Origin: Tomocerus qinae
Lineage: Eukaryota > Arthropoda > Collembola > Entomobryomorpha > Tomoceridae
DNA: 64,000 bases
Assembly: GCA_020055645.1 (NCBI GenBank)
Contig: CM034548.1
Coordinates: 29,004,201-29,068,200, forward strand
Direction: 5' to 3'
Notes under the pieces: generated by a model
Seen by the model: the letters and a program-made list of their open reading frames with translations, nothing else
Told to the model about the DNA's origin: nothing
Database searches by the model: none
Program-made: the position numbers and the translations under genes
Part shown: piece after piece, positions 3,910 through 53,950 of the stretch
How positions within the stretch are numbered: the first letter of the stretch is position 1
Layout: each line of letters opens with the position of its first letter

Positions 3910-4402
3910 GGCTGAATTTAGGCAGCGGATTATCGTAACCACCGCAACCACCGTAACCATCGTAACCATCGTAACCATCATAAAAAACGTAACCACCGTA
4001 ACCACCATAAGAACGTAACCACCGTAACCACCATAAAAAACGTAACCACTATAACCACCGTAACCATCATACCCTCCGCAACCATCGTAACCACCGCAAC
4101 CACCGTAACCACCGCAACCACCGTAACCACCGTAACCATCATAACCTTATATAAGGACATCTTAGAGCATTGAGTTGTGAGTAGCGATACACTGCCTTAT
4201 ATTATTATAAGGTTACGATGGTTGCGGTGGTTACGATGGTTGCGGAGGGTATGATGGTTACGGTGGTTATAGTGGTTACGTGTTTATGATGGTTACGGTG
4301 GTTACGTTTTTATGGTGGTTACGTTTTTTATGATTGTTACGACGGTCACGATGGTTACGGTGGTTGCGGTGGTTACGATAATCCGCTGCCTAAATTCAGC
4401 CG
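3910..4402. mobile_element. Foldback element with arms made of a short tandem repeat
   Basis: The outer ends are inverted copies (GGCTGAATTTAGGCAGCGGA at the left, its reverse complement at the right). Both arms (about 3910-4147 and 4200-4402) consist largely of the 9-base motif GTAACCACC, in opposite orientations, with interspersed CATAAAAAACGTAACC. A centre of roughly 50 bases joins them. The whole can form a hairpin of about 200 bp. No transposase is present. A non-autonomous foldback/MITE element is the likely identity. The apparent reading frame in the arm is only a product of the repeat. Confidence 0.8.
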
Positions 4403-26903: not shown

Positions 26904-26998
26904 CAATTAATGTTTTCAATAATGTACCCCAACGCATACCTTCATGTGCTAAACATCCACATGAATGTGTTGGGGTACATTATTGAAAACATTAATTG
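26904..26998. mobile_element. 95-base palindromic MITE
   Basis: A 30-base perfect inverted repeat (CAATTAATGTTTTCAATAAT... at the left; its reverse complement ending ATTGAAAACATTAATTG) surrounds a short centre that is also partly self-complementary (CTTCATGTG, CACATGAA). The same sequence is found at 10656-10748 inside the GPN3 intron, where the left arm has diverged. Confidence 0.85.
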
Positions 26999-26999
26999 T

Positions 27000-29000
27000 G
27001 AGAAACCTTTATTCACTGCCGTATTTATGAAGACAATGAAGAATAGGGTTGCTAAAATGCAAACAATTCTTACTTTGTAAGTCACTCTAAACAGGCATAA
27101 TTTTATTTATTAACTATTACAGATTTAATGTTAGTTTTCGGAAAAGTTAAGAAATGTCAGTTGTCGGCTGTGCGGCATCGAAGAAAGTACGTCAGGCTAA
27201 GGCGAATGTGTTGTATTTTGTGTAGTAGAGAGATAATCTGAATCTATCATTTCTGCACATGACGGTGAGCGAAGCACGTCACAATCAAACACTAGTGTTG
27301 TCCTCTTCTAAATCTTAAACACAAAATGTCTAAATTGTTGAAACCTCAGTCAAAAATTATTTATTTGTTTGGCTAAACTAATTTCTACCAGAAGAAGCCT
27401 CATTTTATTGACTGGAAGAATACTCAAACTTCAAAAGGTGATCACAGAGTCGGACATTGGAGTCTAATTAACTGCTATCATTTCAGTCGAACAAGATTGG
27501 ACAACCACAGGAAATCCACTTGTCCTGCCCTTTGAGGTACGTTGTCCTTTTGATCATTAATCATTAATTGTAAATAATCAGTATTTTTAACAGATTATAA
27601 CTATCTATAATTGCATGGTCAATGGTTGACTTGTTCATTCATCATTATCATCAATTTTTCGAAAGCAATATTGACATTTAAAACCATTGAGTGTTCTCAG
27701 TTATCTGTGTTTACAATCCATAATAGCAAAAACTGAGATTTTGTCAGCATATCGTGAATGGTTCTCCAACAAATGACAAAATCTACCAGGCGAATTGCTG
27801 ATTGAGTAGTCTTTTGTTAATTGTCAATTTTTTTCGAATTAAGACACCATTTGCACTTATACATTCATTTAGCATATATTAAAAATGTAGCAATTATCCA
27901 TTATTGATTATTATCATAAGATTGAATGTCATATCTGATATCCCCATAGGTGATTCTAGACCATATAATGGTTACATTTGATTGTTGATATTTAGCTGAT
28001 TTGACATTTGGTGTTTGATGATAATGACACTAAATTACTGTTCATTGTCTATTGTAATAATCAAAGCACAAATAAAAATGGCATATGAATGGGATCAGTA
28101 GGTTTAGTCAGGTTAGTTATTGTTTCCAAGATTAGGTAAGGTTTATGTTCCACTCCACAGTAAACAATCAACTATTCAGAATACAAGTCAATAATTTCGA
28201 AGTTCAGGTTCTTCACGTGTTTATTAAAATCATCAAACCTACCTACACAAAATAATAAAAGCTTGAGGTCAAAGAATGTATTTTATTTGGATTTTTACTT
28301 AGACAAAACGAACTGCATTTTCAATTTTACGAATAACAACAAAAGTGACCAATAGTCGTTTAATTTTGATTGTGTTCAACATACCAAGTCAACATTGATT
28401 GTGACTTGAAGTTTTGACTTACAGTAAGAAATAATATTGTTCTATAATATTGTTCTCAAATGTCATTATGATTGCAATGCTAAAATGTCATGGATAAAAA
28501 GGAAATTAAAAATTTTGCTGTACAGTCAACAGTAACAGTCAACAATGGCAATATGAATCAGGAACAGGGAATATTTATGATTATGACATGACGTTATGAC
28601 AGCATCTTATGATAGTAATAATAGCAAATATTACAACTACCTGGTACTTAGTACATATCCATGTTCATAATATTAAACAAGATTTAAAAAAAGATCCATG
28701 TAGCCAATAGTCATCATTCATTTTTCATCAAATAACATAGCCAATGGGTCACCATCGCGATCACCACACTCACCAACAGAGTCAATTAATTGTAAGTTTA
28801 CTAATAATTATTTAGTATATTCAGTCAGTCCAGTAGTCAAGAATCAGTAGGTCACTGTCACATTGATACATCAGGCATTGAGATCCTAGCGTAAAACCAA
28901 ATAAAAATAATTTCTTACAGTTGGTCACTAACAACTAAAAAGTCACTAACCTGTCAGTCACTAAAATTCATTCAATAATGGCCAGGGTCAGTGTCTAAAT
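27000..29000. other. Gene-free, increasingly repetitive stretch before the satellite
   Basis: No gene is recognised. From about 27540 the sequence becomes rich in CAAT, GTCA and AATCAT words, resembling very decayed forms of the tandem arrays that follow at 29015. Confidence 0.4.
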
Positions 29001-29014
29001 AATATTCAAAACAG

Positions 29015-30570
29015 GCTTAGTAAACAATAGTTACTGACTTGGCAAACAATAGTCGCTGACTTGGTAAATAATAGTCGCTGACTTGGTAAACAATAGCTGC
29101 TGACTTGGTAAAAATAGTTACTGACTTGGTAAACAATAGTCACTGACTTGGTAAACAAAAGTCACTGGCTTGGTAAACAAAAGTCACTGGCTTGGTAAAC
29201 AATAGTTACTGACTTGGTAAACAATAGTCACTGACATAGTAAACAGTAGTCACTGACTTATTAAACAGTAGTCAGTAGTCACTGACTTATTAAACAGTAG
29301 TCAGTAGTCACTGACTTATTAAACAGTAGTCAGTAGTCACTGCCTTATTAAACAGTAGTCACTGACTTATTAAACAGTAGTCACTGACTTATTAAACAAT
29401 AGTCACTGACTTAGTGACTGACTGATATTCAGCACTGACTTTGTGACTGACTGATATTCAGCACTGACTTTGTGACTGACTGATATTCAGCACTGACTTA
29501 GTGACTGACTGATATTCAGCACTGACTTAGTGACTGACTGATATTCAGCACTGACTTAGTGACTGACTGATATTCAGCACTGACTTATATAGTGACTGAC
29601 TGATATTCAGCACTGACTTACATAGTGGCTGACTGACTGACTGATATTCAGCACTAGTAACTGATTTAATAAACAATAATCAACACTGTCTTAGTAAACA
29701 ATAATCAACACTGTCTTGTAAACAATAATCAACACTGTCTTAGTAAACAATAATCAACACTGTCTTGTAAACAATAATCAACACTGTATTAGTATACAAT
29801 AATCAACACTGTCTTAGTAAACAATAATCAACACTGTCTTAGTAAACAGTAGTCACTGACTTAGTAACAGTAGTCACTGACTTAGTAACAGTAGTCACTG
29901 ACTTAGTAACAGTAGTCACTGACTTAGTAACAGTAGTCACTGACTTAGTAACAGTAGTCAGTAGTCACTGACTTTCTCAACAATAAATTTAGTCACTGAC
30001 TTTCTCAACAATAAGTTTAGTCACTGACTTTCTCAACAATAAATTTAGTCACTGACTTATTTCTCAACAATAAATTTAGTCACTGACTTTCTCAACAATA
30101 AATTTAGTTACTGACTTAGTCAACAATAAATTTAGTCGCTGATTAATCAACAATTTAGTTACTGACTTCATCAACAATAAATTTAGTCGCTGACTAGGCT
30201 GCCTTAATTGTTAATCAACAATTTAGTCACTGTTGATTGTTTATTCAATAAATTTAATCATTGAAATTGCTAGTCAATAAATTATAGTCATTGAATTAAT
30301 TACTCAAAAACAAATATCCACTGAAGTTAATAGTCAATAAATTATAGTCACAAAATTTTGTAGTCAATAAATTGTGTAATCACTGAACACTGAATGTTAG
30401 TCAATAAATTATAGTCACTGAATTTGTTAGTCAATAAATTATAGTCACTATGATTTTGTTAATCAATAAATAATAGTCACTGAATTTGTTAGTCAATAAA
30501 TTATAGTCACTATGATTTTGTTAATCAATAAATTACAGTCACTGAATTCGTTAGTCAATAAATATCCACT
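29015..30570. repeat. Chain of seven tandem subarrays sharing a CACTGACTT-like core
   Basis: Seven consecutive arrays have different unit lengths but a common joining word (AGTCACTGACTT or close forms). They are: about 29015-29250, 22-base unit CTTGGTAAACAATAGTCACT...; about 29250-29408, 22- and 29-base units with CAGTAGTCAGTAGTCACTGA; about 29409-29655, 29-base unit with AGTGACTGACTGATATTCAG; about 29656-29840, 25-base unit TAGTAAACAATAATCAACAC; about 29841-29965, 21-base unit AGTAACAGTAGTCACTGACT; about 29966-30130, 28-base unit with TTTCTCAACAATAAATTTAG; about 30131-30570, roughly 31-base unit with AGTCAATAAATTATAGTCAC. Within a subarray, copies are nearly identical in the middle and more diverged at the outer ones. 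There is no coding potential. Confidence 0.93.
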
Positions 30571-30906
30571 GATGACTGAAGCTAGTCATCAAATAGTCAA
30601 CAACTTCGTCAGTCAGGCAATCAAATGTGACTTATATAGTATATGTACATTTGACATTATATCATTCATTATTCATTCATTATCCTTATTACAGTAATAG
30701 ACTCAGTCAGTGCAAAGTCTGCTAGGTACAAAAATCTAGCTTTGTTTTGAGCTTGTGACTTAAAACAGTTGTCTAGGTCAGGTCGCCAATCATTCTACTG
30801 CATCTGTGCAGCCTCAAATTCTGTCGTTTTCATTTTACTCGTTGTTCGAAACTTGTTCTAAACCAAGATCCTAAGTCTAACCTAAGTCCGGATCTTGAAA
30901 TTTTTT

Positions 30907-31084
30907 GTTATAAAAACCATATAGTGTACAATTCGACCGACATTCGATTCGAGTGCCAAGAGTTCAGACACAGAGAACATTCATCATAAAATTCATAATT
31001 TAATAAATAACTCGACAGTAAACATTGACTGGCGATGGCGACTGAGTTGGTGTTGTACTCCTGACTGGCCTGACTGTCAGAGGT
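30907..31084 (+). promoter_or_regulatory. Possible core promoter and 5' UTR exon upstream of USP32
   Basis: A TATA-like word (TTATAAAAACC, about 30908) is followed by a more GC-rich, non-repetitive stretch and then a plausible splice donor (GTCAGAG then GTAATT at about 31085). An acceptor-like TTTTAG at 33139-33144 lies just before the USP32 start codon. Together they could be a non-coding first exon of USP32, but this is inference from signals alone. Confidence 0.2.
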
Positions 31085-31099
31085 AATTTTTTAAACAAA

Positions 31100-33140
31100 T
31101 TACCTAATTATTACGTCCGACAGTACATTAATATATGAATGAATTAAAAATCATAATATCTATCTTATATCAATTGAAGATTGCAGGCCGAAGGTCAAAA
31201 TAATATAGCCATTGTAGGTATCCATTCAATTATTTATCCCTTCATTCAGTTCATTCATCATTGGTATACATAGAGTAACTATTTTTTTGTTCTTGATTTT
31301 AGTCGTTGTACTTTTTGTTGACTTCGCTTTAAGGGAAGGCAAGGGTGGCAATGTTATATTACCTACCATTCACTTATTGTGGTATTAGCTTTAGAATAAT
31401 TGGTCATTAAAATTTTATTGTTTGTCATTTGACTCACGCATCAGTATATTGGTATAATAGCTGATAGCTATTCATAAAATTATTTAGCAAACGTTGCAAT
31501 ACGATACGATAAACGATGGAGTTTCCATCAAATTATTATTTTATATTCCCAGCTAACTACTTAAGAATGTCAATTAAGAGTTTTTTCACCCTATAACTGT
31601 AGTTACTGCTGAAGATGTGTAGTCAGTCATTTATATTTGTAATGTTTGACACAAGATTATGACAGTACTATAGTATTTTTTATTAATTCGTGTACAATGA
31701 GCGCAATTAGTATTATATGTGCACGTTTCGGGTCGTTTCGTTTCAAATTAGTTGACATTTAACATTTAAGTGAATCACAATTCACATTTAAAATCGTTGA
31801 AATTTAAAATAATCAAGAAGTAGTAGCTTTGAAATGAAAAATGGGCAAGGGTTTAGCCATTACTATAGATTGTGAGACAATAAATATTCAATTTTGTATA
31901 TTCAAAGTTTTTTTGAGTCGCTTGGGGAAAACCCCAGATTTTGGTTGTATCTCAATATTGCATTCTAGCAAGTCAGAAACTTCAAAATAAACCAGCACAT
32001 ACGGGACAATGCGACCATTTTGTAAGATTTCTACAAGGTACCGTTGTCAGCTGTGCCCAAAATAATGACAGAATTGCTATAATAACTATTTCGTCTTTAT
32101 CAGCTGGCATAAATTGCCATAACAAATTCATTTTTGGAGTTATTTTGAACGCCAAACTACAATGTCAAAGTATCAAGTATTTACGATTAATTATCTTTAT
32201 TTTCATTATTTATCAAGCTGTCATAAAGTCAAGTAATTGTGTTATCTAATCAAATAAATCAATACAATACAATCGGAAATTAAACCTTCATGAGAGACAA
32301 GCAGCAGTGAGCTCTTACACCGACTGTACATGCAGTTGACAGTAATCTCTGGGTTTTAAATCTGCATAAACTAGGTTGACAGGCATTTAATTTTTACATT
32401 TGCTTGCATTGAAATAAAAATAGAACGGAATGTCTTCAGTCAATACCTGCAAAAATGATTAAGTAAGCAAAGTTAATGTACTTACAAACCCTAGGAATTT
32501 TAGTACATCATGATAATTCATGAGTGGAAGTACATCGTACTTCGTACTGCAATATATTTCATACCCTTTATTTAATGTTAAATCGTTAGCTATTTTGAAC
32601 TGAGTTTAATTTGAACTAAGTTTGAATTTTTTTTAATCATTCAGCTAATAATTCCAGATAGTATAAACACATTATATTTCTTCTAAATGTGCATATAATT
32701 CAGCAAACTGTAGATTTGTATTGTATTTTGTATCTGAACAACTTTTTCTTAACGTAGATTTTTAGTGTTGCTATTTCATGCGATTACATATTACGTGACA
32801 TGTGTATTTTGTAGTCAAAGTAGTAGTAATATTTTTATTATTGTGATTTTTGATTTTAGGGCTATTCTAATTTTGGGAGAAAATATCACGCACTTATAAT
32901 CTAATTGTTCCGTCGTTCGGTGTTTCACATAGGGATTAGCAAGTATCCCATTGTCTTGAATAATTTTGTTGTTCCGACACGTCTATTAAATGTATCTTTA
33001 GACATATGCCGACCGTATCCGTAAGTTCATTGTCTTTTTATACGTTTAATAACAACATTCATTCAAAATTACGACCATAGTTCATTATTCGTAGCTATTT
33101 TATTTGAAAACAATTCAATTGAATTTGTGTTTATTAATAT
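31100..33140. other. Gene-free stretch upstream of USP32
   Basis: AT-rich sequence without a recognisable coding exon. A 102-codon frame at 31941-32249 has no domain features and no codon pattern that sets it apart. It may be a 5' intron or intergenic DNA of USP32. Confidence 0.45.
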
Positions 33141-47576: not shown

Positions 47577-47663
47577 CGCCCAGAAGGAGGAATCGAACCC
47601 CTCTGACGCTAATCAGCTACAGGTTTGAAGCCTGCACCCCGTACCAACGAGGCTCATCTGGGC
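47577..47663 (-). tRNA. tRNA-Sec: tRNA-Sec (selenocysteine, anticodon TCA)
   Basis: The minus strand reads GCCCAGATGAGCCTCG..., then GGTGCAGGCTTCAAACCTGT (anticodon arm with TCA), a long variable arm (AGCTGATTAGCGTCAG) and the T arm GGTTCGATTCC, ending in TTCTGGGCG. The length is 87 nt, as in animal tRNA-Sec, with the extended acceptor stem, and the anticodon-arm sequence matches the strongly conserved animal one. Directly after the 3' end (minus strand) is ATTTTGACAATTTTT, giving two Pol III termination tracts. The gene looks intact. It decodes UGA as selenocysteine with SelA-type synthase SepSecS, eEFSec and SBP2, none of which lie in this window. Confidence 0.95.
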
Positions 47664-49822: not shown

Positions 49823-52800
49823 ATGGCTACATGTCAGATGGCATGGGATCCGATGGACATCGACCGAAACACATGTTACATTTGTTACGCTAGGTTTGAA
49901 AGGGATTTCAACGATCAGCCCCAGGAATATCGGAAGCGGGTTATGGAAAGTTGTACCGACATTTTATTTTCAGAAATAACAGGTTTAATAATTTATTTGC
50001 TTTTTGAATGCAATTTTGATAAATGAACATTAATGGGTTAAACTGTTATATGTCATCCTTGATGCACGCGATTTTCGATTTCTGGCTTTAATTAATTTTG
50101 CGAAGCAAAAGCAGGGCATGAAAATAATGAAAAAGGTTGCCTTTTGCTAGCAAAAAGTCAAAAAAGCACCTTGAATTTGAGGTTGTTACAAACTTCTTTT
50201 TACATAAGAAAAATAGTTTTGCCATTTTCTATAAGTTAATAACGCATAATAGTTACAAATTTCAATTTATTTTATTTAATTAATTTAACCAAAAATGCAC
50301 CTTTTTGTTAATTTTGCTGGGGCAAAAAAGGCAACCAAAAAGGCAAAAGTGCAAAAAGGAACTTTTTTGCCTTTTTCATGTCCTGATTAAAACGTGCAAT
50401 TTTTAAAGAGAAGAACACCTTACAGTTTTAAGTATATATTTGGTTCTATAGACAATTTTTTCAGTAGGATCCATAATGCCACCATATGTATTTTAATTTT
50501 TTACACGGTTTGTGACATGTTATTAATAGTATGTTTTCCAATTGAATACTAATTTTTTTGTAATATTTTTCTACTAGGGTGTGAATTTGATTGGAATCTA
50601 ATCATCTGTAATGACGATTTGCCATTTTGTCACGGATGTTGGAATTCAATCGAAAAAATTTTTAATCTTAACAAAGAAACCGAACAGACGGACAAGGCAA
50701 TGGAACAAATTATATTGGGCATAGCGATGAAGGTTTTACTCAATAGAAAATATCTGAAGAAGAAGGGATTGGCGACCTCAAAAAAGGATCCGATTTCTCC
50801 TTTTAATGGGGTGAAAGTTGAAGGATATATAGCCAATCAGATCAAATGCAGATTGTGCCACAATGTTTTCAGTGTGGGAGACTATACTAATTTATACACT
50901 ACGGATATGTCCGTCAAAATCACGGAATGCGTCGAGAAACATCTATTCCCAGAACTCTTCGACGAAAACTTTTTCGATTGGAAAATTCCATTTTACAATC
51001 TCGTTCCTTTCTGCGGGGAATGTTCAACGGGTATCAAAAGTATGATAGAGCTGGATGAAAAGCTTTCAGAAATTGAGGATTTTGTTTCAAGCAATGTGGA
51101 TATGTTTACATTGACCGTATTGAAATGCAGAAAAAAGGTGAAGAAATCGGACAGACGGGCATTTCGCCGGAAAAATAAGCATTGCGATGATTCAAGTATA
51201 GCTGACTCCATTGACAGTCAAGATACAGTAGATTTTGATGACGATTGCCAAATCATTGATGAGACCAATCCAGATACGGATATTTATCCTAGTAATTTCG
51301 CAGAACCTAGACTTGACGAACCCCCTGAACAACTTATGGAACAGTCCACAAATTTTGCGACATTAAACTCCATACGCAGTGGATACAATGAAGGTAACGA
51401 TCCATATAATAGATATACTTATTAAAAAATAATAAAATAGTATTATTTATTATTTATGAATTGCAAATAAAATAGTTATTTAATTATTCATGAATTGCAA
51501 ATAAAATAGTTATTTAATTATTTATGAATTGCAAATAAAATAGTTATTTAATTATTTATGAATTGCAAATAAAGTAGTTATTTAATTATTTATGAATTGC
51601 AAATAAAATAGTTATTTAATTATTTAATAAGATAATTATTTAATTAAATAATTATTTGATACCTAATTTAATAAAATAATTATTAAATAATTTAATAAAA
51701 TAATTGTTAAATAATGTAATAAAATAATTATTAAATAATTTAATAAAATAATTATTAAATAATTTATTAAAATAATTATTAAATCATTTAATAAAATAAT
51801 TATTAAATAATTTAATAAAATAATTAATAAATAATTTAATAAAATAATTATTAAATCATTTAATAAAATAATTGCTAAATAATTAAATAAAATAATTACT
51901 AAATAATTTAATAAAATAATTATTATTAAATAATTTAATAAAATAATTATTAAATAACTTAATAAAATAATTATTAAATAACTTAATAAAATAATTATTA
52001 AATAATTTAAGAAAATAATTATTAAATAATTTAATAAAATAATTATTGAATCATTATTAAGTAATTTTATAATATTGAAAATTATTGAATCATTATTATT
52101 GAATAATTATATAATATTGAAAATTATTGAATCATTATTATTGATTAATTATATAGTATTAAAAATTATTAAATCATTTTTTTGAATAATTATTTAATAT
52201 TAAAAATTATTGAATCGTTATTATTGAATAATTATATAATATTGAACAATTATTGACTCATTATTGTTGAATAATTACAGAACATTTATTATCAAATAAT
52301 TTCCGAACAGTTATTATTGAATAAACTTCGAACAATCATTAGTGAATAATTTTTGAACAATAATTATAACCAAAACTAAAAAATACTATAATTTGCATAT
52401 TTAGTTGCGAATGTATTGCATTATTAAATATTTCATAGAAATATTCATAGTGTTGCTTGTAGCTTTGATTCCATTCCTAAAATTGGAATTGAGAAGTAGA
52501 AAACCTTTATTGTAAAATGAATGAAAATTATTTTGATTAAGATCCAATTCAAATCGAAGAAACGGTGCCCCTACTTGGAGGAAATGGGCCCTCTATTCCA
52601 GGATATTCTTTCGCGAACGGAAACCAATCAGAAAGACCGAATTCAGCAGAGACATGCGTTATTCCTGCACAGACCCAAATTTCGACAGATCTGGTTATGA
52701 CAGATCAAGCGAATCTTCGAAAAGAAGGGACTTTAATGACTGTTCCATTGAGCACCATCACGAAAGGAAATGGGACAAATGGTGGCGTTGTGCTGGTTAC

Positions 52801-53950
52801 CACTGCTCAACCACCAAGTGCCGGCGGTTCTGGAACTGAAACTACTGGAGGATTGAGGAAATGTCCGACCTGTACGAGGTTGTTTGTTCATACAGATGCG
52901 TGGAACAGACATAAGAATATATGTCACCCAGGCCAACAAACTGGTCACTTTGACCCAGAAATTTGTAGCGAAATGACTTCCACTGATGAAGATGAATATA
53001 ATATCCATCTCGTATCACAACAGACTATGGCTGCTAGTGAACAATCTGATTGTTTGCTAACACGATCACAATCCCAAACTTCACTTCAGCGTTCACCGCC
53101 AGACATCCCACAAGATAGAGGCAGACGAGCTCAGTCTCAAACTCTGGAAGAGACTTATTCCTCCGAACCGACCCTTCTGGAGTATCAATGCGATTACTGC
53201 CCAAAACGATGCAGGACTAAAGCTGGATTAAATCTTCATACACATATCCATACCAAAACTCCCTACAACCGGGCAGCGCCGCCGACGCCTAGTATTTCAC
53301 CAAGAAAACGAGCTGCATCCCAATCTCTGGATGATTATATACTTGGGGAAATCCCTCAAGAGTATCAATGCGATTACTGCCCGAAACGCTGCAGGTCTAA
53401 ACGAGGGTTGAGTAATCACATGAATTCGCATACAAATATTCCCCATAACCCTGCGCAGCCATCCACTTCATCAAGAAATGACAGGCGATCTCAATCCCAG
53501 ACAAGGGAAGACTTCCCTCAAGGCAACGTCAGCGAAGGCACCTCGGTCTATTCTTGCGACCGCTGCCCAAAACGCTGCAATTCTAAAAATGGCCTCAAGC
53601 TTCACGTACAAAGTCATTCAAAAAAGGCAACTTTAAAATGTTGCCTATGCAGTTCATTCTTTCGATATCCTATTGAATTGAAAGCACACTTAACTAAATC
53701 TCATTCTGAAAATCCTTCCCAATCAAATAAAACCAACTGTTCTCCAGCGTCGAAAGTTTCGAGGAGAGGGGTAACAGATTTTGCATGTCCATTTTGCCCA
53801 TTCCCTGTTTCTAACAGAAGGAAATTAATGGCGCACGTACAGTCACACTATGATATTGCTGTCGAACATAGATGTGAGGTTTGCAAAGTTGTCTTTTCCA
53901 GTAAGAGATCACTTGGACCGCACAACAAATCATTTCACAGTCAAAACTGA
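49823..53950 (+). CDS. C2H2 zinc-finger protein with two N-terminal ZAD-like Cys modules
   Basis: Probably a DNA-binding nuclear regulator; the target is unknown. Three exons: 49823-49982, 50578-51393 and 52542-53950, giving 794 residues with phases 1 and 1. The N-terminal region has two Cys-pair modules: C18-x2-C21 with C71-x2-C74, and C144-x2-C147 with C199-x2-C202, like the zinc-finger-associated ZAD dimerisation domain but not a sure match. A basic patch (KKVKKSDRRAFRRKNK) and an acidic stretch (DSQDTVDFDDDCQ) follow. Exon 3 carries seven C2H2 fingers starting near residues 433, 542, 602, 664, 692, 741 and 770. Fingers 2-4 share CDYCPKRC and sit in a repeated linker-plus-finger module. 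The start ATG has a good context (AAGATGG). Without splicing, exon 2 would end at a stop 51423-51425, giving an N-terminal product alone. No orthologue name is assigned. Confidence 0.85.
50112..50385. mobile_element. hAT-like MITE, family 2 copy B, in zinc-finger gene intron 1
   Basis: The ends CAGGGCATGAAAA and TTTTTCATGTCCTG are inverted repeats. The flanking 8-mers AGCAAAAG and ATTAAAAC agree only partly, so the target duplication is decayed. The inner arms (AAAAGGTTGCCTTTTGC with GGCAAAAAAGGCAACC) are inverted as well. The ends match the element at 24154-24302; the body is longer. Confidence 0.75.
51432..52345. repeat. AT-rich minisatellite filling zinc-finger gene intron 2
   Basis: Three successive tandem arrays occupy most of the 1148-base intron. 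About 51458-51628 has five copies of a 34-base unit (GAATTGCAAATAAAATAGTT...). About 51669-52045 has some sixteen copies of a 23-24-base unit (AATAAAATAATTATTAAATA...). About 52045-52345 has copies of a roughly 40-base unit (TTATTGAATCATTATTATTG...), decaying to the right. Confidence 0.9.

Follow-up and report, generated by a model that had tools for sequence, protein, structure and literature searches.

A chain of seven adjoining tandem arrays, upstream of a probable USP32-like gene of Tomocerus qinae, has the look of an ordinary patchwork minisatellite whose centre is homogeneous and whose ends are more diverged (Table 1). With a probability of about 0.85, we regard it as a compound (multi-variant) minisatellite that arose from one ancestral unit by local slippage or unequal exchange, and in which the core word common to the units is not a selected motif. 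It offers a readable case in which nested rounds of local copying diversified one short unit into several sub-arrays and left intermediates and a hybrid in place. All coordinates refer to the window, i.e. the whole stretch of 64 000 nucleotides that was analysed.

The chain is 1548 bases in length, and Tandem Repeats Finder (TRF) periods along it were 22, 29, 25 (49), 21, 28 and 30. Decomposition at the core, using manually placed cut points, gave 57 units from 29032 to 30566 in seven blocks (A to G), in agreement with the seven adjacent arrays described in the first-pass annotation. The main units of the seven sub-arrays are 22, 29/22, 29, 25/24, 21, 28 and 30/32 bp long, respectively; most of the 57 units fall between 21 and 35 bp, and two are longer. 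Minisatellites are head-to-tail arrays of ~10–100 bp units extending over hundreds to thousands of bases, and the size of this array and its main units (21–32 bp) lie within these ranges; it also displays local amplification, resemblance between neighbours and variant units grouped in blocks. In sub-array A, 15 of 198 sites deviate from the consensus of nine equal-length units, and its last unit (29229) is an A/B intermediate in the unit list.

Table 1. Features of the compound array and of the neighbouring gene (window coordinates).
Feature	Start	End	Strand	Description	Basis
Whole compound minisatellite array	29016	30563	+		TRF, decomposition
Left border, possibly decayed unit-like sequence (weak)	28801	29015	+		Local alignment score, GTCA count
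Sub-array A	29016	29250	+	22-bp unit CACTGACTTGGTAAACAATAGT; comparatively diverged, ten units in the decomposition	TRF, unit alignment, decomposition
Sub-array B	29251	29403	+	CACTGACTTATTAAACAGTAGT; three 29-bp units, identical and carrying an additional CAGTAGT, followed by three of 22 bp	TRF, decomposition
Sub-array C	29404	29658	+	29-bp unit CACTGACTTAGTGACTGACTGATATTCAG, six copies, then two longer units at the end	TRF, spacer alignment, decomposition
Sub-array D	29659	29831	+	25/24-bp units CACTGTCTT(A)GTAAACAATAATCAA, partly alternating as a 49-bp double unit	TRF, decomposition
D/E hybrid unit	29832	29853	+	Left side D, right side B/E-type GTAGT; switch within the spacer	Unit alignment, decomposition
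Sub-array E	29854	29965	+	21-bp unit CACTGACTTAGTAACAGTAGT; four identical copies and one with extra CAGTAGT	TRF, decomposition
Sub-array F	29966	30227	+	28-bp unit CACTGACTTTCTCAACAATAAATTTAGT, decaying rightward	TRF, decomposition
Sub-array G	30228	30566	+	~30-bp unit CACTGAATTTGTTAGTCAATAAATTATAGT, most diverged; 62-bp double unit at 30416–30539	TRF, decomposition
Possible USP32 promoter and non-coding first exon	30909	31088	+	TATAAAA at 30909; splice-donor-like AG/GTAATT at 31081–31088	Read by eye, presumptive
Probable first coding exon, USP32-like gene	33168	33262	+	Encodes 31 residues; EF-hand-like and UCH exons downstream	Translation

The sequence to the left of the array may include decayed unit-like DNA. 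The best local score in 28801–29000 was 25 against a background 99th percentile of 26, with the reverse strand also scoring 25 against its own 99th percentile of 24, and GTCA occurs nine times in these 200 bases, compared with an average of 0.9 per 200 bases across the window. The spacer of sub-array C, which might derive from this flank, aligned to it (~28990–29021) with a score of 24, between the 95th (22) and 99th (26) percentiles of the background.

The shared core is far beyond chance. Exact CACTGACTT starts 24 of the 57 units, 44 carry it with at most one mismatch and 50 with at most two, while composition shuffles of the array contained on average 0.002 exact cores (maximum 1 in 1000 shuffles). 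The rest of the window contains no exact copy on either strand; allowing one mismatch, the plus strand has 44 copies in the array and four outside, and the minus strand two and 11, respectively. The statement that almost every unit ends in the core is generous: sub-array D has CACTGTCTT in five of its seven units and sub-array G has CACTGAATT in three and CACTATGAT in two of its 11 units. Decomposition yielded a shared core and many related spacers rather than unrelated units lacking a common word, the outcome that would have spoken against the chain.

The spacers themselves are mostly related. Their versions, read from the spacers and from a unit alignment covering blocks A to F, are GGTAAACAATAGT in A, ATTAAACAGTAGT in B, AGTAAACAATAATCAA in D, AGTAACAGTAGT in E, TCTCAACAATAAATTTAGT in F and TGTTAGTCAATAAATTATAGT in G; AACAATAAA is present in F, and G resembles F. 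Spacer-only alignments were better than those of shuffled spacers (≤ 26 of 2000) in nine of the 21 sub-array pairs (A–B, A–D, A–E, A–F, B–D, B–E, C–D, D–E and F–G), five of which survived Bonferroni correction (A–D, A–E, B–E, C–D and F–G). The other 12 pairs missed this level, i.e. A–G (47 of 2000), B–F, B–G, D–F, D–G, E–F, E–G and five of the six pairs involving C. These alignments place A, B, D and E in one family to which F and G are attached stepwise (G via F), with C as an outlier that resembles D only. A single unit, approximately CACTGACTTAGTAAACAATAGT, has drifted to give A, B, D and E, and C alone looks like a spacer swap, its spacer resembling that of D. Whole-unit distances of C and G to the other blocks ranged from 0.31 to 0.44, and most of them did not fall under the 5th percentile obtained with shuffled units (0.36). 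The first-pass annotation had the rest of the unit changing abruptly from array to array, each new unit replacing the spacer and keeping the core. Neither idea fits most of the sub-arrays, in which the spacers are homologous and the transitions include the intermediate unit 29229 and the hybrid unit 29832.

Successive rounds of amplification, also proposed there, are supported. Unit distance rises with separation along the array (Mantel r = 0.414, reached by none of 2000 permutations), and 52 of the 57 units have their nearest relative within five units; the nearest relative also lies within the same sub-array for 52 of the 57. Double units are nested in D (49 bp, TRF) and in G (62 bp, decomposition), and a 7-bp duplication, CAGTAGT, is found in B and again at the end of E. 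Substitutions relative to the local consensus of equal-length units are rarest in the middle of the array and commoner towards both ends (A, 0.076; B, 0.000 and 0.030; C, 0.011; D, 0.048 and 0.000; E, 0.000; F, 0.042; G, 0.107 and 0.219). Mean distances between adjacent units agree with this gradient (0.06–0.08 in B to E; 0.11 in A; 0.17 in F; and 0.24 in G), which is nonetheless not clean, as all-pair mean distances with indels counted (A, 0.14; B, 0.16; C, 0.13; D, 0.09; E, 0.10; F, 0.20; G, 0.24) fail to separate A from B and C.

These patterns are consistent with the following history. An ancestral unit of ~22 bp, close to CACTGACTTAGTAAACAATAGT, would have multiplied locally through replication slippage, unequal exchange or both, its copies gaining substitutions, small indels and the 7-bp CAGTAGT duplication, and now and then a single variant or a pair of variants would have been re-amplified. 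Copying would have been latest in the middle of the array, which would explain the few substitutions there and the larger number at the two ends. The shared word would then reflect descent from one unit and the alignment that slippage requires, rather than being a motif kept by selection. The respective parts of slippage and unequal exchange, the order of events and the lack of function are all three things that we infer.

Stitching of unrelated repeats during assembly would be a further explanation for such a chain, given that repeat copy numbers are often wrong in assemblies and that this locus is known from a single assembly. We consider this most improbable, as real local evolution is expected to give intermediate and hybrid units (29229 and 29832) and a similarity that declines with distance, and the array takes up just 1.5 kb of a 51.6-Mb contig.

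Inside sub-arrays the core shows no excess conservation. Among the 46 of 57 units with an equal-length partner, which is the count that we rely on, the core deviated from consensus at 23 of 414 positions (0.056) and the spacer at 46 of 782 (0.059; Fisher P = 0.90). Without sub-array A the figures were 15/333 and 39/665 (P = 0.46), and in a hand-chosen subset of 35 of the 57 units (without 29659, 30109, 30160 and all of G) they were 10/315 and 12/554 (P = 0.38). Between sub-array consensuses the core is quieter, with 0.04 differences per column and pair against 0.29 for the spacer (A, B, D, E and F), or 0.04 against 0.36 when C, with its intact core beside a largely different spacer, is included. 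Because the core had been chosen as the most constant stretch, we computed the chance that any nine-column block would be equally quiet: this was 0.45 without C, 0.05 with C and 0.19 with C and G (the last from approximate column counts), compared with 0.05, 0.004 and 0.017, respectively, had the nine columns been fixed beforehand. Chance clustering could account for the quietness of the core between sub-arrays, although the values with C included leave some probability for constraint on the core or for core-guided joining. A word common to adjacent arrays need not be functionally conserved.

The same lower variability between sub-arrays could also be expected if the near-palindromic AGTCACTGACT were a preferred site of breakage and joining, with spacers exchanged around a fixed core. 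Two transitions, B-to-C and E-to-F, do switch directly after an intact core, AGTCANTGACT has 17 copies in the array and none in the rest of the window, and Box 1 of the Meloidogyne satellites, as outlined in PMC3694981, provides a precedent. The core as a recurring join nevertheless holds for these two of the six transitions read off the unit list, since the core is broken at C-to-D, the D-to-E switch lies within the spacer (unit 29832), and A-to-B and F-to-G are gradual. By our estimate the core and its shared flank make up about half of a unit, so that two of four sharp switches at this position are near the chance expectation; moreover, many spacers are homologous rather than swapped. Hairpin-driven slippage was considered by folding tandems of eight units as DNA, each on both strands, and comparing them with composition-shuffled tandems (16 tests), and the tandem units did not fold clearly better: the best result (29-bp B unit, minus strand) was equalled by two of 200 shuffles, followed by the same unit on the plus strand (9), F minus (10) and E minus (12), with nothing for D and G, which is unconvincing over 16 tests. 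We find core-guided shuffling unlikely, and such a mechanism is not needed for the array. The extended version, in which joining takes place preferentially at AGTCACTGACT or this sequence is fragile, the array is a small natural record of core-guided spacer exchange and its length, given its place just upstream of the possible USP32 promoter, could tune that gene, is very unlikely. Only breakpoints that stay at the core in different alleles or related species would make the array more important.

A location about 3 kb upstream of USP32 had been proposed, and this is close to what we found: the array ends ~2.6 kb before the probable start codon of the USP32-like gene and ~0.35 kb before the TATA-like site. 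Exons downstream encode an EF-hand-like domain (E ~1e-4, below Pfam's own cut-offs) and a UCH domain (above the cut-off), and a further downstream exon matches ubiquitin hydrolases in the PDB, the best being USP4 and USP15. We take the gene to be USP32, the name given in the first-pass annotation, from this pair of domains together with an apparent resemblance of its N-terminus.

Proximity to this gene might suggest that the array is a cluster of regulatory repeats controlling USP32, through AP-1 as the first-pass annotation had supposed or, more plausibly, through another factor. The AP-1 part is not supported, as full sites (TGA(C/G)TCA) number zero in the array and seven in the rest of the window. 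In an AP-1 site the half-sites face the opposite way to those of AGTCA-C-TGACT, which are everted (back to back). As to other factors, GTAAACAA, presumably forkhead-like, occurs 12 times in the array and six times in the rest of the window, and AACAAT, which we take to be SOX-like, 24 and 94 times, respectively. These counts show only that tandem repetition concentrates all the words of a unit, and any word inside such a unit will appear as a 'cluster of sites'. With the core not being extra conserved within sub-arrays either, a regulatory cluster is highly improbable, and we see no evidence in the sequence that the array acts as a switch for the neighbouring gene.

A search of the 334-Mb genome for other arrays with the same core, as the first-pass annotation had recommended, detected no second array with three degenerate unit probes (≤ 3 mismatches) or with the whole array as query. 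Inside the array lay seven of 17, seven of seven and 17 of 23 probe matches; the other 10, 0 and 6 were scattered singles, compared with 6, 0 and 6 for reversed-pattern controls. The exact double-core pattern has two genome matches, both within the array. The whole-array search returned the array itself and one weak match of 69% identity (C2:71597235), by eye a different AT-rich repeat. The 15-base word ARTAGTCACTGACTT gave 42 matches (six for the reversed control), 13 in the array and 29 outside; 20 of the latter were inspected as possible related arrays, of which 19 belong to one dispersed repeat family unlike the array region and one is a lone match. The array is probably a single locus, likely rather than proven given that the genome DNA search skips simple repeats, and arrays at several loci, as in a dispersed satellite DNA family, were not found in the whole-array and unit-probe searches. 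The dispersed family that carries the 19 matches shares ~88–99.9% identity over ~0.55–3 kb and contains AATAGTCACTGACTT.

Dispersed sequences do occur to the left of the array, i.e. a palindromic repeat at 26904–26998 and segments at 27146–27585 and 27712–27753 with diverged relatives in the genome, and the array could be thought of as internal repeats or a remnant of a transposable element. However, at least ~1.3 kb separates these left-flank fragments from the array, the genome search located neither the array nor the right flank (30571–33000) a second time, and nowhere in it did array or flanks recur together; along with the dissimilarity of the inspected ARTAGTCACTGACTT family to the array region, this leaves a transposon origin with hardly any probability. 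The repeat at 26904–26998 is itself inverted, its two 34-bp arms being 97% complementary (RNA fold z −14), and is a dispersed, MITE-like repeat, with at least 84 matches among the 40 candidates that were scored, out of 1024 at first look, and many loci matched on both strands.

Different units in tandem at one locus are also a feature of human complex tandem repeats, which PMC10502081 describes as abundant in human genomes, linking repeat divergence to recent replication slippage. As characterised there, human complex arrays tend to have units < 10 bp, whereas those of the present array, known from one assembly, are mostly 21–35 bp. In Meloidogyne a conserved box is common to divergent satellite units and units switch at this box (PMC3694981), a likeness to the short word common to the divergent units described here. 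The Meloidogyne case, in that account, involves several satellites whose Box 1, 17 bp long, resembles the CENP-B box, and junctions of ~20 bp, while the present array is a single locus of 1.5 kb whose word has 9 bp and coincides only partly with the unit switches.

Chained arrays with a shared word are not rare in this genome, as two more were detected in the window, at 150–1676 (CTAGAAATA 27 times; 14 spacings) and 51431–52366 (AATAAAATA 19 times; 6 spacings), and one clear case in the sample from contig C1 (L036:8921–9495; CCCCATTCG 12 times; 7 spacings), together with two looser ones (L034 and L048). The corresponding values for the array near USP32 are 24 copies of CACTGACTT and 9 spacings. 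The rate is rough, being drawn from 20 stretches of 10 kb (200 kb) of contig C1 only. The chains at 150–1676, at 51431–52366 and in L036 share with the present array adjacent blocks, differing periods and a short word in common, but differ from it in sequence and composition and were decomposed in less detail.

Several other repeats and genes were encountered. The array at 150–1676 is degenerate, built of GCGCCTAGAAATATGTCC-like units of many lengths, and that at 51431–52366 (9% GC) lies between a zf-AD-like ORF (50553–51425; match below Pfam's cut-off) and a C2H2 zinc-finger ORF (52541–53950); zf-AD is a domain type associated with arthropods. A selenocysteine tRNA gene (tRNA-Sec) is located at 47578–47663 on the minus strand; it is the sole Rfam match at gathering threshold in the window, and no structural RNA was found in the USP32-side array. 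Two 9-bp arrays of opposite orientation at 3934–4379 (CGTAACCAC then GGTTACGAT) have long inverted repeats and could be Gly/Tyr-rich coding repeats. In the contig C1 sample, an 8.6-kb array with an AT-rich unit of 40 bp (L041:3–8570) fills most of the sampled stretch, and the unit of another array (L037:8311–8759) is similar-looking.
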